A stretch of 64,000 bases of DNA. Source: Arthrobacter sp. SLBN-112. GTDB taxonomy: Bacteria > Actinomycetota > Actinomycetes > Actinomycetales > Micrococcaceae. The notes under the pieces are model-generated. The model was not told the DNA's origin. It did not search any database and saw nothing but the letters and a program-made list of their open reading frames with translations. The translations under genes and the position numbers were made by a program. Location: positions 3,782,001 to 3,846,000 of the forward strand of contig NZ_VFMU01000001.1 of the NCBI RefSeq assembly GCF_006715225.1, read 5' to 3'. Below, in pieces: positions 43,882-51,019 of the stretch; the stretch's first letter is position 1; the number at the start of each line of letters is the position of its first letter.

Positions 43882-45531
43882 CTACATCCGTTCCGGGGCT
43901 GAAACGCCCAGCAGGTCAAGTCCGTTGGCCAGCACCTGGCTGGTGGCGTCGTTGAGCCACAGCCGGGTGCGGTTGAGGTCGGTCACCGCTTCGTCACCCA
44001 TGGGGGCAATGCGGCAGGCGTCGTACCAGCGGTGGTAGGCCCCCGCGATGGCCTCCAGGTGGCGGGCCACGCGGTGCGGTTCGCGCAGCTCTGCCGCCTT
44101 GGCCACGATGGACGGGTAGCTGCCCAGGTAGGACAGCAGCTCGTTTTCGGTGGCGTGGTCCAGCAGCGAAGCCTCGAATGCGGAGCGGTCCACGCCTGCA
44201 TCCACCGCATTGCGTGCGGCGCCGCGCGAACGGGCATGGGCGTACTGCACGTAGAACACAGGGTTCTCGTTGCTGTGCTTCTTCAACAGCTCCGGATCAA
44301 GGGTCAGCGGCGAGTCGGCCGGGAACCGGGCCAGGGAGTAGCGGACGGCGTCCTTGCCCAGCCAGTCGATCAGGTCCTTGAGCTCGATGATGTTGCCGGC
44401 GCGCTTGGACAGCTTGGCTCCGTTAACGGACACCAGCTGGCCGATCAGGACCTCGATGTTCATTTCGGGGTCATCGCCTGCAGCGGCAGCGATGGCCTTC
44501 AGCCGGTTGATGTAGCCGTGGTGGTCAGCGCCCAGGAGGTAGATCTTCTCGGTGAAACCGCGGTCCTTCTTGGACAGGTAGTAGGCGGCATCCGCGGCGA
44601 AGTACGTGGGCTCGCCGTTCGCACGGATCATCACGCGGTCCTTGTCATCGCCAAAGTCCGTGGTCCGCAGCCAGACCGCACCGCCGTCGTCGAACACGTG
44701 GCCCTGTTCGCGAAGGCGCGCCACGGCACTTTCGATGGCGCCGGCGTCGTGCAGTTCCTGCTCGGAGAAGAAGACGTCGAACTCCACGCCGAAGTCCGCC
44801 AGGGTGGCCTTAATGTCCTTCATCTGCGCTTCGTAGGCGGCGGCGCGGATGACCGGCAGCGCGGCAACCTCAGTGAGTTCGCGGATGTCCGGGTGCGCGG
44901 TGAGCACTTCGTGGCCAAGGTCTGCGATGTACTGACCCGGGTAGCCGCCGTCGGGCACGGGAAGGCCGTGCAGCCGGTTGTAGACGGAGTGGGCGAAGGT
45001 GTTCATCTGCGAGCCGGCGTCGTTGATGTAGTACTCGGCCGTGACGTCGGCGCCGGAGGCGCGCAGCACGCGGGCGATCGAATCCCCCAGCGCAGCCCAG
45101 CGGGTGTGCCCGATGTGCAGCGGCCCGGTGGGGTTTGCGGACACGAATTCCATGTTGACGGTGCGCCCGGCGAGCGCCGTGTTGGTGCCGTAGTCCCTGC
45201 CTGCCTCGACGATGGCCTTCGCCAGTGCACCGGCTGCTGCGGCGTCCACGGTGATGTTCAGGAAGCCGGGTCCGGCGATGTCCACGGCGGAGACGCCGTT
45301 GATCGACTTGAGGCGGGCGCTGAGCACGCTTGCGAATTCGCGCGGGTTGGTGCCCGCCTGCTTGGCCAGCTGCAGGGCGATGTTGGTGGCCCAGTCGCCG
45401 TGGTCCCGGTTCTTGGGCCGCTCCACGCGCACGTCCTCGGGGACTGCTGATGCCGCGAGGGCGATCTCGCCGGCGGCGACGGCGTCCTTGAGGCAGGCGG
45501 ATATGGCGAGGGAAAGTTCTTCGGGAGTCAC
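43882..45531 (-). CDS. argS: Arginyl-tRNA synthetase
   Basis: Class I synthetase of 549 residues. HIGH motif: NPTGPLHIGHTRWAALGDSI. KMSKS-like motif: NGAKLSKRAGNII. The C-terminal anticodon-binding domain (DALR) runs from about 430 to the end, finishing NGLDLLGVSAPERM. It heads the lysine/threonine operon on the minus strand; the divergent flavin cassette begins 164 bases away. Confidence 0.96.
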   Translation of the reverse strand: MTPEELSLAISACLKDAVAAGEIALAASAVPEDVRVERPKNRDHGDWATNIALQLAKQAGTNPREFASVLSARLKSINGVSAVDIAGPGFLNITVDAAAAGALAKAIVEAGRDYGTNTALAGRTVNMEFVSANPTGPLHIGHTRWAALGDSIARVLRASGADVTAEYYINDAGSQMNTFAHSVYNRLHGLPVPDGGYPGQYIADLGHEVLTAHPDIRELTEVAALPVIRAAAYEAQMKDIKATLADFGVEFDVFFSEQELHDAGAIESAVARLREQGHVFDDGGAVWLRTTDFGDDKDRVMIRANGEPTYFAADAAYYLSKKDRGFTEKIYLLGADHHGYINRLKAIAAAAGDDPEMNIEVLIGQLVSVNGAKLSKRAGNIIELKDLIDWLGKDAVRYSLARFPADSPLTLDPELLKKHSNENPVFYVQYAHARSRGAARNAVDAGVDRSAFEASLLDHATENELLSYLGSYPSIVAKAAELREPHRVARHLEAIAGAYHRWYDACRIAPMGDEAVTDLNRTRLWLNDATSQVLANGLDLLGVSAPERM

Positions 45532-45695: not shown

Positions 45696-46187
45696 ATGAG
45701 ACCCTCCAGCCCCCAAAGCCCCGCCACCTCCGGCACTGCGTTCCGCAAGAGTCTTTTCGCCGGTCTCGCAGGCCTGTCCCTCGCAGGAACGGTGGCGGGC
45801 TGTGCACCGTCCGCGGCGGACAGCACCCCTGGCACCGCGGGGACCCCGGCCGCTCCTGCTTCGGGTTCTTCCGCTCTTGCCGGCAGCGGCGGCAGTTACA
45901 AGGACGGCACCTACAGCGCGGACGGGAACTATGTGTCCCCGAACGGCACGGAAACAGTGGGCGTGCAGCTGAAGCTGGCGGCGGGAAAAGTCACGGACGT
46001 GCAGATCACCCAGCACCCGTCCAATCCAAACACCCGGAAGTTCCAGGGCCAGTTCGCCGGGGGCATCGCTGCGCAGGTGGTGGGCCGGAACATCGACGAG
46101 CTTAACGTTTCCAAGGTTGCCGGGTCCTCGCTGACCAGCGGAGGCTTCAACCAGGCCGTGGACAAGATCAAGGCGGAGGCGCAGTAG
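45696..46187 (+). CDS. FMN-binding domain lipoprotein
   Basis: A 163-residue exported protein. The signal peptide ends in a lipobox (TVAGC, lipidated Cys36), followed by a Ser/Ala/Gly-rich linker and an FMN-binding domain (about 68-163; YKDGTYSADGNYVSPNGTET, AGKVTDVQITQHPSNPNTRK). Domains of this type carry FMN bound covalently by ApbE to Thr/Ser of an SGAT-like motif. Here the matching place reads VAGSSLTSGGF, so Ser145 is the predicted acceptor. ApbE and a membrane reductase follow at 3 bases and by overlap. It would accept electrons outside the membrane. Confidence 0.85.
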   Translation: MRPSSPQSPATSGTAFRKSLFAGLAGLSLAGTVAGCAPSAADSTPGTAGTPAAPASGSSALAGSGGSYKDGTYSADGNYVSPNGTETVGVQLKLAAGKVTDVQITQHPSNPNTRKFQGQFAGGIAAQVVGRNIDELNVSKVAGSSLTSGGFNQAVDKIKAEAQ

Positions 46188-46190
46188 GCG

Positions 46191-47063
46191 GTGCCCCTCG
46201 CGGACTGGCAGGACTTTTCGTTCCAGGGCATTGGAACCGCCTGGGAAATCACCACTGCGCAGCCATTGCCCCCGTCCCTTCGCGCACACCTCCTGGACAG
46301 GGTTGAAAAGTTCGACGCCGACTGGTCCCGTTTCCGTGCCGACTCACGGGTAGCGGACCTGGCACGGACGCCGGGACGTTATGCCTTTCCGGAGGAGGCC
46401 GCCCCGCTGGGCGAGCTATACCGCCTGCTGTACCGGGTCACCGGCGGCGCCATGACCCCGCTGATTGGCAGCAGCCTGGAGCGTCTGGGGTATGACGCAG
46501 CGTATTCGCTGCGGCCGGCCGGTCCGCCACTGCCTGCACCGCCCTGGGAATCGGTGCTCAGCTGGTCCGGAGCAGTCCTGACCGCGGACGTTCCCGTGCT
46601 GCTGGACATCGGCGCGGCCGGCAAGGGCCTGTTGGTGGACCTGCTGGCCGCGGAACTGGAGGACGCGGGCATTGGCGCATTCATCATCGATGCCAGCGGC
46701 GACCTGCTGACACGCGGGGCAGGACCCGTCAGCGTGGCGCTGGAACACCCCTACAACCCGGCACAGGCCATCGGGAAAATCGACCTGGACGGCCGCGCTC
46801 TGTGTGCCTCCGCCGCCAACCGCCGGGCCTGGGGCGACGGAATGCACCACGTCCTGGACGGGACCACCGGGGAGCCGGTGCGGACCGCCGTCGCCACCTG
46901 GACCCTGGCTGGGACGGCCATGCTGGCCGATGCCATTGCAACGGCCCTGTTCTTTGTTCCCGGCGCCACGCTCCAGGAAACCTTTGATTTCTCCTGGCTG
47001 ACCGTCTTTTCCGACGGCAGCGCAGCCTACTCCGCCGAATTCGAAGGGACGCTGTTCTCATGA
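46191..47063 (+). CDS. FAD:protein FMN transferase (ApbE family)
   Basis: A 290-residue ApbE that attaches FMN to Thr/Ser of target proteins. It has RVEKFDADWSRFRADS, the LLDIGAAGKGLLVDLL motif, a HVLDGTTGEPV segment and the metal-binding TAMLADAIATALFF. The start is a GTG three bases after the lipoprotein stop. Unlike many ApbE proteins it shows no signal peptide, so flavinylation before export, or a cytoplasmic target, is possible. It overlaps the next gene by four bases (ATGA). Confidence 0.9.
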   Translation: MPLADWQDFSFQGIGTAWEITTAQPLPPSLRAHLLDRVEKFDADWSRFRADSRVADLARTPGRYAFPEEAAPLGELYRLLYRVTGGAMTPLIGSSLERLGYDAAYSLRPAGPPLPAPPWESVLSWSGAVLTADVPVLLDIGAAGKGLLVDLLAAELEDAGIGAFIIDASGDLLTRGAGPVSVALEHPYNPAQAIGKIDLDGRALCASAANRRAWGDGMHHVLDGTTGEPVRTAVATWTLAGTAMLADAIATALFFVPGATLQETFDFSWLTVFSDGSAAYSAEFEGTLFS

Positions 47064-48628
47064 ACCCCGTGGAAACGCCGCAGGCCCGCCCGCCCGCGTC
47101 CCTGGCCGGCCGGATGGGGACTGCCGTGGGCAGGTTCACCATGTACCGGATTACCCTGGTGGTCCTGGCGGTACTGGCCGGCTACAGCATCCTGCTCAAC
47201 GTCCTGGGCTGGCTGACGTTCGGCATCCCGGCCATTCTGGTCCACCTGGCACTGTGCCTGGGCCTGACCTACGCCTCCAACCGGGTGCTGGCGGCGCTTT
47301 TCCGGGTGAACCCCCATACAGAGTCTTCCCTCATCACGGGGCTGCTGCTCTACTTCCTGTTCTGGCCGTCGCTCCAGCCACTGGACCTGGCCGGGGTGGC
47401 ACTGGCGTGTGTCCTGGCGTCCGCCTCCAAATACGCCTTGGCGTGGCGTGGCCGGCACATCTTCAATCCTGCGGCCGCCGGCGCCTTTGCCACCGGACTG
47501 ACCGGTTTGAACATTGCTACGTGGTGGGCGGCGACTCCTGCCGTGCTGTGGCTGCTGGTGCCGGGCGTACTGCTGGTCCTGTACCGGACCCGCAAAGTGC
47601 TGATGGCGTCCGTGTTCACGCTGGCGGCCACCGCCGTCATCACGCTGGAACTGCTTCGCTCGGGCATGACGGCGGGAATGGGCATCTACCAGGCCCTGGC
47701 ACAGCGGCCGGTCCTGTTCTTCGTCGGATTCATGCTGACCGAGCCCCTGACGCTGCCGCCCCGCCGCCGCCAACAGCTGGCGCTGGCCGCCGTGGTGGCG
47801 GTGCTCTTTGCAGTCCCGTGGAACCTTGGCTTCTTCGCCAACTCGCCCGAGGCAGCCCTGCTGGCCGGCAACCTGCTGGCCTTCCTGGCAGGCCAGCGCG
47901 GGGCCGTGAAGCTCCGGCTCGCCGGTACCCGGCAGCTGACGCCGGCTACCACCGAGTTCTCCTTCGAACCTGCCCGGCCGGTTCGCTTCCTTCCGGGCCA
48001 GTACATGGAAGTGGACCTGCCGCAGGCGAGGCCTGATGGCAAGGGCCGACGCCGGGTGTTCAGCCTGACCGGCTCCCCCGGCGGGCGCCTGGTGAAGTTC
48101 GCCGTGCGGACGGCCGGCCCCTTGTCCGCGGCGAAGGAGGCGCTCCTGGCGCTGCGGCCGGGCGACGAAGTGGCAGCCACGGCAGTGGGCGGCGATTTTG
48201 TCCTGCCGCGCGATCCGCACCGCCCGGTACTGCTCATTGCTGCGGGAATCGGGATCACACCCTTTGTTTCGCATTTGTCCTCCGGGGGCCTGCGGGAGCG
48301 GGACGCGGTACTCCTGCTCCTGGCCAGGAGCGCTGACGAAGTGGCCTACGCGGAAGAACTCCGGGATTCCGGCATCCGGGTGCTGGTGCGGACGGCGGAC
48401 GGTTCGCGGCCGCCGTCCGGACTGGCCTCCGTTGCCGGACGCTCCGGTCCCGGGGACCGGCTCCCCGGGGACCGGCTGGACGGCGAAACCCTTGCGGCAC
48501 TCGTGCCGGACATCGCCGCCCGCGAGGTCTATGTCTCGGGATCACCGGCGAGTGTTGCGTCCCTTCGCCGCGCCGCGAAGAGCGCCGGTGCCCGGCGGGT
48601 CCGGACAGACTCTTTCTCCGGCTATTAA
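47060..48628 (+). CDS. NqrB/RnfD-like membrane domain fused to ferredoxin-NADP reductase domain
   Basis: A 522-residue fusion. Residues 25-285 form about eight membrane helices with NqrB/RnfD features: GRHIFNPAAAGAFATGL and VGFMLTEPLTLPP. I see no SGAT flavinylation site in this part. Residues 290-522 are an FNR-type reductase: PGQYMEVDLP (about 310) and RRVFSLTGSPGG for FAD, AAGIGITPFVSHL (about 393) for NAD(P), and EVYVSGSPASVASL (about 490). The design predicts NAD(P)H oxidation inside and electron delivery through the membrane to the FMN lipoprotein encoded upstream. It starts with a four-base overlap with apbE. Confidence 0.85.
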   Translation: MNPVETPQARPPASLAGRMGTAVGRFTMYRITLVVLAVLAGYSILLNVLGWLTFGIPAILVHLALCLGLTYASNRVLAALFRVNPHTESSLITGLLLYFLFWPSLQPLDLAGVALACVLASASKYALAWRGRHIFNPAAAGAFATGLTGLNIATWWAATPAVLWLLVPGVLLVLYRTRKVLMASVFTLAATAVITLELLRSGMTAGMGIYQALAQRPVLFFVGFMLTEPLTLPPRRRQQLALAAVVAVLFAVPWNLGFFANSPEAALLAGNLLAFLAGQRGAVKLRLAGTRQLTPATTEFSFEPARPVRFLPGQYMEVDLPQARPDGKGRRRVFSLTGSPGGRLVKFAVRTAGPLSAAKEALLALRPGDEVAATAVGGDFVLPRDPHRPVLLIAAGIGITPFVSHLSSGGLRERDAVLLLLARSADEVAYAEELRDSGIRVLVRTADGSRPPSGLASVAGRSGPGDRLPGDRLDGETLAALVPDIAAREVYVSGSPASVASLRRAAKSAGARRVRTDSFSGY

Positions 48629-48738: not shown

Positions 48739-48811
48739 GCCCTCGTAGCTCAGGGGATAGAGCGTCTGCCTCCGGAGCAGAAGGTCGTAGGTTCGAATCC
48801 TATCGAGGGCA
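48739..48811 (+). tRNA. tRNA-Arg(CCG)
   Basis: A complete cloverleaf: acceptor GCCCTCG paired with CGAGGGC and discriminator A, D-arm around AGCTCAGGGGATAGAGC, anticodon stem TCTGC/GCAGA with loop CTCCGGA giving anticodon CCG, and T-arm GTAGGTTCGAATCCTAT. CCA is not encoded. It reads CGG codons, common in this high-GC genome. Confidence 0.97.
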
Positions 48812-48816
48812 CAGAA

Positions 48817-48849
48817 AACCCCCGTCGCTTCACTGAAGCGGCGGGGGTT
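48817..48849 (+). terminator. Intrinsic terminator after tRNA-Arg
   Basis: AACCCCCGTCGCTTC pairs with GAAGCGGCGGGGGTT across an ACT loop, with one T-G pair, and is followed by CTTTCGTT. It lies 5 bases beyond the tRNA and before the convergent transporter gene. Confidence 0.85.
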
Positions 48850-48890: not shown

Positions 48891-49841
48891 TCAAAACTTC
48901 AGGGCGGCCTCATCCAGCGTGGCCAGGGTCAGCACGGCCTCCTCGACCGTTTCATGGTCTTCCAGCTCACGCTCGATCCGGCGGAGGGTTACGGCGACTT
49001 CGTGTTCGGGATGGTCCCCCTGCAGGTCCACGGCCGCCACCAGATACAGCTTGCGGGGTCCCACGAATTCCAGGTGCAGGTAGGTGAGCCGGGCGATGTC
49101 CGGGTGCTCCAGCACGCGCCGGGCCATGGACCGTTCAATGTCAGGGGTGACGCCCTGGCCCACCAGGAAGCGCCTGTTCCGGTCGATCAGGACGACGGCG
49201 ACGACGGCCAGCAGTACGCCCACGGCGATCGAACCGATCGCATCCGGCAACGGTGATCCCGTGACCTGGTGCAGGAACACGCCCACGAATGCCACAACGA
49301 GGCCGATCAGCGCGGCAGCGTCCTCGGCGAAGACGGCGCGCAGGGTGGGGTCTGAACTGATGAGTACCTGCTCCAAGGTGTGCCGGTCCAGCTCATGGGC
49401 CGCCTTCCTGGTCTGCCGGAACGCCTGGACGAAGGAAATTCCCTCGAAGACGAAAGCCACGGCCAGGACCACATAGGCCACACCGAAATCGGCCGCCGGC
49501 TCCGGCTCAATAATCTGCTGGACGCCATGCATGATGGACACCACCGCGCCGGCGGTAAAGAGTCCGAACGCGGCGAACATGGACCACACATAGGCTTCCC
49601 GGCCGTAGCCCATGGGATGGCTCTCGTCCCTGGGCCGGCCGGAACGCCGCTCGGCGAAGAACAGGAACACCTGGTTTCCCGTGTCTGCCCAGGAGTGGGC
49701 TGCCTCCGCCGCCATGGAAGCCGAGCCCGTAAGGACAGCGGCCACGGACTTCGCCGCAGCCACAAGGGTGTTGGCCACAAAGGCGATGATGACAATCAAC
49801 AGGGTGGAGCTGGACGAGGATCCCTTTTCGGTTTCAGCCAT
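48891..49841 (-). CDS. Cation diffusion facilitator family transporter
   Basis: A 316-residue metal-proton antiporter with six membrane helices and a C-terminal ferredoxin-like domain (about 215-316). The first metal-site motif is HSWADTGNQ (HxxxD) in helix 2. In helix 5 the usual second HxxxD is replaced by FAEDAAALIGL, the pattern of the SLC30A9-like branch. The metal is therefore uncertain; Zn, Co or Mn are all possible. The start MAETEKGSSSSS was chosen because the first helix follows; the longer upstream frame is not conserved. Confidence 0.88.
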   Translation of the reverse strand: MAETEKGSSSSSTLLIVIIAFVANTLVAAAKSVAAVLTGSASMAAEAAHSWADTGNQVFLFFAERRSGRPRDESHPMGYGREAYVWSMFAAFGLFTAGAVVSIMHGVQQIIEPEPAADFGVAYVVLAVAFVFEGISFVQAFRQTRKAAHELDRHTLEQVLISSDPTLRAVFAEDAAALIGLVVAFVGVFLHQVTGSPLPDAIGSIAVGVLLAVVAVVLIDRNRRFLVGQGVTPDIERSMARRVLEHPDIARLTYLHLEFVGPRKLYLVAAVDLQGDHPEHEVAVTLRRIERELEDHETVEEAVLTLATLDEAALKF

Positions 49842-49966
49842 GCGCCTACCGTACCCACCTGGGCTTGCTGCAGTACCCGGAAGGCTGCCGAATTTCCGGC
49901 CGCCGCCTGCCGTTGATTGTCGGTGGCTCCTCTTAAGCTGAAACCACCTAGCTGAGGGAGTACGCC

Positions 49967-51019
49967 ATGCACGTTCAGTTCTGTTCCATCGTTCCGCCCT
50001 ACCTGTTGCGCCGGCTGGCGCAGCAGGACGCTCCCGGATTCTCTTCCGCGGCCAGCGCTGCGCGGAAGGCCCTGGGCCACGTCGAATCATTCCAGGCCGC
50101 ACGGGCGCAGGCTGTTCCGGTCCTCCCGCCCGGCCTGCGCCAGGCAAAGCCCGGCCCGGTCAACCGCACCATCTACGATGCCGGCGGCGAAGAGACCCTT
50201 CCGGGCAGTCCGGTCCGCAAAGAAAACGGACGCCCCACCGGCGATGCCGCCACCGATGAGGCCTACGACGGACTGGGACACACGCACCGGTTGTATGCCG
50301 AGGCTTTCGGACGGGATTCCGTTGACGGACGCGGGCTGAAACTCGATGCCACCGTGCACTTCGGAAATCTGTACGACAACGCTTTCTGGAACGGCTCACA
50401 GATGGTGTTTGGTGATGGCGATGGCGATGTCTTTGACCGGTTCACCAAGTCCATCAGCGTTATCGGCCACGAATTGGCGCACGGCGTCACCCAATACTCG
50501 GCCGGGCTTGTTTACCGGAACCAGGCGGGTGCCCTGAATGAGTCGATGTCGGATGTCTTCGGTGCGCTCGTTGAGCAGTACGTCAGGAACCAGACCGCCG
50601 CCCAGGCCAGCTGGCTGATCGGGGAAGGGCTTTTTACGCCCAAGGTCCAGGGGCTGGCCCTGCGGTCCATGAAAGCTCCCGGAACGGCATACGACGACGA
50701 CGTGCTGGGCAAGGACCCGCAGCCCGGCTCCATGGACTCCTATGTCCGGACCAGCGCCGACAATGGCGGCGTCCACATCAACTCCGGCATCCCCAACCGC
50801 GCGTTCTACCTGGTTGCGGACGCCCTGGGCGGCCATGCGTGGGAGGCGCCCGGCCGCATCTGGTACGAGACCCTTACCAATGGATCGTTGCCGCCGGCAG
50901 CAACGTTCACCGTCTTTGCCCGCGCCACGGTACGTGCCGCCACTGACCTTTTTGGTTCGGACTCCAAAGAGCATGACGCCGTACGGGGGGCGTGGGAAAC
51001 TGTAAAGGTCAAGGTTTAA
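49967..51019 (+). CDS. Protealysin-like M4 family metallopeptidase
   Basis: A 350-residue thermolysin-family zinc peptidase without a signal peptide. The active site is complete: HELAH at 168-172 (catalytic Glu169), third zinc ligand Glu192 in NESMSD, and His270 in GGVHINSGIPNRAF. The short precursor carries PPYLL at 10-14, the hallmark of the protealysin subgroup, which matures by self-cleavage. The GAGGGAG ribosome site precedes the ATG. The next gene encodes an emfourin-like inhibitor, as in Serratia, where the pair forms an operon. Confidence 0.93.
   Translation: MHVQFCSIVPPYLLRRLAQQDAPGFSSAASAARKALGHVESFQAARAQAVPVLPPGLRQAKPGPVNRTIYDAGGEETLPGSPVRKENGRPTGDAATDEAYDGLGHTHRLYAEAFGRDSVDGRGLKLDATVHFGNLYDNAFWNGSQMVFGDGDGDVFDRFTKSISVIGHELAHGVTQYSAGLVYRNQAGALNESMSDVFGALVEQYVRNQTAAQASWLIGEGLFTPKVQGLALRSMKAPGTAYDDDVLGKDPQPGSMDSYVRTSADNGGVHINSGIPNRAFYLVADALGGHAWEAPGRIWYETLTNGSLPPAATFTVFARATVRAATDLFGSDSKEHDAVRGAWETVKVKV

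Follow-up and report, generated by a model that had tools for sequence, protein, structure and literature searches.

A three-gene flavin cassette of Arthrobacter with a fused NqrB/RnfD-like reductase and an ApbE without a signal peptide

Flavinylation systems termed “NQR/RNF-like” have been described by Meheust et al. 2021 (PMC8238504) and Huang et al. 2024 (PMC11334425) and are reported mainly from Actinobacteria and the candidate phyla radiation. Huang et al. modelled a Ktedonobacter system, noted that its membrane domain has no covalent flavin site and proposed that the exported subunit places its flavin at a non-covalent flavin site (PMC11334425). Architecture, electron direction and the docking idea are therefore already in print. 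In NQR and RNF, NqrB/RnfD is the inward, or return, arm (PMC12174285), and FMN lies 7.7 Å from riboflavin in RnfD (PMC9588780). Most ApbE enzymes seem to be secreted, with one cytosolic ApbE given for a soluble target (PMC12052999), and an extracellular transferase is taken for granted for a Streptomyces protein (PMC10339131).

We analysed a window of 64,000 nucleotides from Arthrobacter sp. SLBN-112, in which three plus-strand genes lie at 45696-46187, 46191-47063 and 47060-48628. The first, encoding an FMN-binding lipoprotein, ends with a TAG stop at 46187 and is followed by three bases (GCG) and the GTG start of apbE at 46191; the TGA stop of apbE at 47063 overlaps the ATG of the third gene, a membrane-reductase fusion, at 47060 as an ATGA, and the fusion ends at 48628. 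Re-reading the sequence returned the same coordinates, three-base gap and ATGA overlap that the first-pass annotation had given, and confirmed the cassette as a real observation, correctly read and ordinary in kind. On one side it is flanked by a minus-strand gene at 43882-45531, which we take to be argS (named by eye from the sequence), and on the other by a tRNA-Arg gene at 48739-48812, followed by a terminator-like stem at 48817-48849. A simple scan found no sigma-70-like promoter, which means little for this kind of organism. Past the tRNA-Arg gene, Pfam identifies a cation efflux family protein (48891-50147, minus strand) and a thermolysin-type M4 metalloprotease (49967-51019, plus strand); the ORF finder draws the two reading frames with overlapping start regions.

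The first-pass annotation had proposed looking for the same fusion beside ApbE and FMN-binding genes in other genomes, and it is found there in two sets of loci. The close set (80 loci kept out of 94, titled Arthrobacter, Pseudarthrobacter, Paenarthrobacter or Micrococcaceae) carries the full cassette in the same order in 79 cases, the exception beginning inside ApbE at a contig end (L019); an argS match is present in 78 of the 80, the other two being short contigs. At one close locus (L027) the apbE match falls into three pieces, owing either to a frameshift or to faulty assembly. Across the class, an even sample of 394 genomes yielded the full-length fusion in 27 genomes (E 2e-109 or better) from five genera and three families; the other matches to the fusion query, among the matches listed, were to its reductase half. 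From these 27 we fetched 24 as a distant set, leaving out the organism's own genome and two of the same genus, and in all 24 loci the lipoprotein gene comes first, followed by apbE and then the fusion. Taken over both sets, the arrangement exceeds what chance would give. Two distant loci of one genus have extra genes between the lipoprotein gene and apbE (L125, ~4.3-6.9 kb; L126, ~3.8-6.5 kb), one of them resembling WXG100 weakly, at a score under the cut-off. Two other loci, which share a genus with each other and were checked by Pfam (L123:3038-5767 and L129:3780-6500), have a P-type cation ATPase gene immediately upstream of the cassette. When home-made gene calls were compared by eye at eight distant loci, the neighbours of the cassette varied between lineages, suggesting that the unit consists of the three genes; no acceptor gene common to the lineages was seen among these eight.

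The fusion joins an NqrB/RnfD-like membrane domain (approximately residues 1-280) to an FAD/NAD(P) reductase domain (approximately residues 281-522). PF03116 matches neither the window fusion nor any other protein of the organism's genome; it does match 6 of 24 fusion relatives at E <= 0.01 (best 1.8e-6), and the fusion of a same-genus genome (G002) at E 1.8e-5. The structure model, for which the whole fusion was folded rather than the membrane half alone, matches RnfD and FNR/NqrF in Foldseek: the best 50 of 1169 matches in the plain list are reductase-type because the reductase half fills the list, and RnfD appeared only on a second look. Compared with 19 RnfD sequences, the profile of the N-terminal half of the membrane domain scores 33.7 (highest of 60 column shuffles, 20.1), and that of the C-terminal half scores 18.4, not above its shuffles (20.9). 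The hhalign probability to RnfD is low, at 21.9 for the whole membrane half and 39.4 for its N-terminal half, with controls for the whole-half comparison at E 0.68 (reductase half) and E 0.25 (reversed membrane half). The fold match to RnfD and the PF03116 matches in relatives rule out an unrelated membrane family.

Across 105 aligned fusions (81 close and 24 distant), the reductase domain has GxGxxP in 104, and only 94 agree with a loose FAD-site pattern. A C-terminal NAD-binding domain, for which the published test is PF00175, is present, with the window protein itself below the PF00175 cut-off. No fusion of the 105 contains CxxC, and seven have at least four cysteines; the absence of CxxC fits, without proving, the lack of an Fe-S cluster in the fusion, and agrees with the earlier statement that the cassette encodes no Fe-S protein. 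Among 120 homologues listed (1824 found among 7996 scored), PF03116 is assigned to 8 and both Pfam labels to 4. Since PF03116 misses most members, the published census based on it probably undercounts, with the reservation that its thresholds differ from the precomputed Pfam labels used for the 120 homologues.

The riboflavin pocket of Vibrio cholerae NqrB is made up of G198, N200, T162, D346, N203, A205 and F342 (PMC10643135). Our residue correspondence to NqrB/RnfD was drawn from profile alignments, which are weak at E228, where the motif is plain. By this correspondence, N136 (N203) and A138 are kept in 105 of 105 fusions, T93 (T162) in 104 of 105 and F224 in 102 of the 104 that are readable. 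Two positions are exchanged: N200 of NqrB is replaced by H133 in all 105, and D346 by E228 in all 104 readable fusions. In the window, the codons for H133 to N136 (H-I-F-N), at the N200 and N203 positions, occupy 47456-47467, and the E228 codon (GAG), at the position of the riboflavin-binding D346 of NqrB and D248 of RnfD, occupies 47741-47743, where the C-half profile alignment alone is not significant. With the pocket mostly kept and two positions exchanged, the alignments point to a non-covalent flavin as likely near the cytosolic side of the membrane domain, in an altered site. A covalent FMN motif in the membrane domain can be dismissed, as [ST]GA[ST] occurs in none of the 105 fusions.

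The lipoprotein (45696-46187, 163 residues) has a predicted lipid-anchored Cys36 (VAGC) and an FMN_bind domain at approximately residues 69-163. The window protein scores 20.3 bits against FMN_bind, under the cut-off of 22; the family matches 13 of 17 lipoproteins of one alignment at E <= 0.01 (best 8.6e-7), and the structure model has an FMN-binding domain as its best PDB match and further matches to FMN_bind, NqrC and RnfG. It thus has the FMN_bind fold expected of an ApbE substrate. The substrate motif D-x-x-[S/T]-G-A-[S/T] is absent from the window protein, which has S-K-V-A-G-S-S, and no SGAT-like motif occurs near the C-terminus of the 24 distant lipoproteins. A profile of 17 lipoprotein relatives aligns this GSS with the GAT of 8p2a_A (E 0.0066), so that the second Ser stands opposite the Thr of the solved relative, and GSSLT is present in all 79 close and 24 distant lipoproteins (103/103). 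Despite the variant motif, the predicted linking position still holds a residue of the Ser/Thr class. We presume that FMN would be linked to Ser145 (codon TCG, 46128-46130) within this GSS motif; exchanging Thr for Ser has been reported to cut flavinylation by 10 to 55% (PMC12052999).

ApbE (46191-47063, 290 residues), an FAD:protein FMN transferase, matches PF02424 at E 8e-33 and ApbE structures in the PDB down to E 5.7e-11 (4xgw). Aligned with the latter, it keeps the H-x-x-D and A-D-x-x-x-T stretches, whose catalytic role is described in PMC12052999. Pfam matches to PF02424 in the window, to FMN_bind and PF03116 in relatives, and the fold matches together uphold the identities first assigned to all three proteins.

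Unexpectedly, this ApbE has no signal peptide. In the window and in most close loci, reading upstream from the ApbE start meets a stop codon before any further start codon. Scoring a hydrophobic stretch as a Kyte-Doolittle mean above 1.8 over 15 residues, within 70 codons upstream of the ApbE domain, we found none in 79 close cassettes (76 without room for one), none in 24 distant cassettes (18 without room) and none at 30 other ApbE loci of the organism's class (L170-L199), which are the loci of best matches in 118 genomes rather than a random draw. The control set, drawn from a different class within the phylum (L200-L229), has such a stretch in 25 of 26 ApbEs, the exception being L217. Sequences incomplete at the five-prime end were dropped (2 of 81 close and 4 of 30 control ApbEs), and the organism's own second ApbE was not measurable in this comparison. 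A cruder test on ApbEs adjacent to further FMN_bind genes in the class gave a hydrophobic N-terminal stretch in 0 of 21 (21 pairs from 30 loci), with several ApbE starts missing and only about 15 residues measured in those cases; their FMN_bind partners had a stretch in 12 cases, were unmeasurable in 7 and fell under the limit in 2 (L277, and the organism's own copy at 1.65 against 1.8). The N-terminal signal or lipobox of most characterised ApbEs is thus found in none of the 79 close and 24 distant cassette ApbEs. The FAD exporter EetB (PF07456) was found in none of the 27 cassette genomes, nor in any of 8 control-class genomes, which makes the result uninformative. A literature search of titles and the beginnings of abstracts, covering few subscription journals, returned no report of a signal-less ApbE for exported targets.

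In the ApbE/lipoprotein cluster of the window at least one member does carry a signal or lipidation site, as judged by lipobox pattern and hydrophobicity; the pattern is loose, and in L046, L051, L064 and L065 at the least it picked a stretch that precedes the true start. The absence of a signal peptide from ApbE in all measured cassettes suggests that FMN attachment may take place in the cytosol, ahead of export. We regard it as an evenly balanced proposition that this holds class-wide, so that ApbE would attach covalent FMN in the cytosol and the loaded protein would then be exported by a Sec or Tat-like route; the published scheme of flavinylation outside the membrane with exported FAD would then not be valid for the class. 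Twin-arginine export would be a simple way out for the lipoprotein. Among the signals of the 79 close lipoproteins, only 5 have strict RRxHH and 67 have RKxHH; among those of the 24 distant ones, only 5 have RRxHH and 1 has RKxHH, which makes 10/103 for the strict motif overall. As the signals are not consistently twin-arginine, the flavin-bearing chain could possibly cross via Sec. The missing signal peptide complicates the first-pass picture as to where FMN is attached.

Possible alternatives are that ApbE is exported without a signal or that the lipoprotein is not flavinylated at all. The latter, with ApbE serving another cytosolic target and the cassette using free flavin, would suit a lipoprotein motif that deviates at most defined positions and two partners predicted on opposite sides of the membrane. 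We consider it very improbable: the apbE gene sits between the lipoprotein and fusion genes throughout the close (79/80) and distant (24/24) loci, its product is the sole PF02424 match in 19 of 27 cassette genomes and retains the two catalytic stretches, and GSSLT is invariant, with its second Ser aligned to the linking-motif Thr of the solved relative.

We think it likely that the cassette, although its fusion falls below the PF03116 and PF00175 cut-offs that define the class, belongs to the published NQR/RNF-like flavinylation systems and has an outward path from NAD(P)H to the lipoprotein. In this path, NAD(P)H would reduce the FAD of the cytosolic reductase domain. The membrane domain would take up the electrons on a non-covalent, riboflavin-like flavin and hand them to the FMN of the lipoprotein, docked at the place that the covalent FMN of NqrB/RnfD itself would occupy; from there they would reach an acceptor outside the cell. 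ApbE would supply the FMN, most likely acting in the cytosol since it has no signal peptide. The NqrB/RnfD arm, being the inward one in NQR and RNF, would have to run in reverse here, and would do so without an Fe-S protein. The minimal route suggested by the first-pass annotation thus holds up computationally, as a type already in print (PMC8238504, PMC11334425). Its view that one membrane protein replaces several Nqr/Rnf subunits needs qualifying: the minimal route stands, and what it uses is a reversed inward arm rather than a copy of the outward NqrF-NqrD/E path.

Flow in the opposite sense, from an extracellular reductant through the lipoprotein FMN and the membrane domain to NAD(P)+, would agree with the NQR/RNF precedent, where electrons travel inward through the NqrB/RnfD subunit and RnfD directs them towards NAD+ (PMC12174285, PMC9588780). 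Reduction of NAD(P)+ needs a low-potential donor, however, and a related actinobacterial FMN protein has a potential of -184 mV (PMC10339131), which makes NAD(P)H likelier as the donor; nor did a donor gene stand out near the eight loci compared by eye. We therefore hold inward flow to be quite improbable.

If flow is outward, the lipoprotein might pass its electrons to O2, for redox balance or peroxide production, with no specific acceptor. This we consider unlikely. It would fit the lack of an accompanying acceptor gene at the eight loci, and the closest solved FMN domain (8p2a) is domain 2 of SaFMN3, a protein that can use O2 (PMC12052999, PMC10339131). Isolated FMN domains commonly react with O2, however, and such reactivity is a poor guide to the natural acceptor.

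With the outward path as the preferred reading, the cassette is a simple three-protein transmembrane electron route, seemingly of flavins only, that is suited to studying an NqrB/RnfD-type domain without partner subunits. Its interest rests on the flavin-site exchanges, on its undercounted spread and above all on the place of flavin attachment, which the pairing of a signal-less ApbE with a lipoprotein makes directly testable: if attachment is cytosolic, a cofactor-bearing polypeptide would cross the membrane.

Among known systems, the NQR/RNF-like ones share with the cassette an exported FMN-binding protein, a protein with an N-terminal NqrB/RnfD-like membrane domain and a C-terminal NAD-binding domain, and a membrane domain without a covalent flavin site. 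The present analysis adds the Ser/GSS motif, the two riboflavin-site exchanges (H and E), the PF03116 misses and the signal-less ApbE; the motif, the exchanges and the signal-less ApbE go unmentioned in the accessible parts of PMC8238504 and PMC11334425. Compared with RnfD/NqrB and their partners RnfG/NqrC, the membrane subunit of the cassette has no covalent FMN motif, is fused to its reductase and has D346 changed to E and N200 to H. PF02508 (NqrD, NqrE, RnfA, RnfE) has no match in the organism's genome, which is a single contig and 100% complete; 4 of 14 control genomes match. Listeria flavin-based extracellular electron transfer (PplA, FmnB) likewise exports electrons through a lipoprotein flavinylated by an ApbE-type enzyme; there, FmnB works outside the cell and depends on EetB/FmnA to export FAD (PMC9973259). 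The organism's one other PF02424 match lies in a second, MsrQ-like flavinylation cluster (L085:3833-6724, corresponding to C1:869832-872723). This system shares with the cassette a membrane protein with a C-terminal NAD-binding domain, an FMN_bind protein and an ApbE without room for a signal, and differs in its ferric-reductase-type membrane domain (PF01794) and in the canonical SGAT motif of its FMN_bind protein. Haem-type and flavin-only export routes may thus run in parallel in the same cell.
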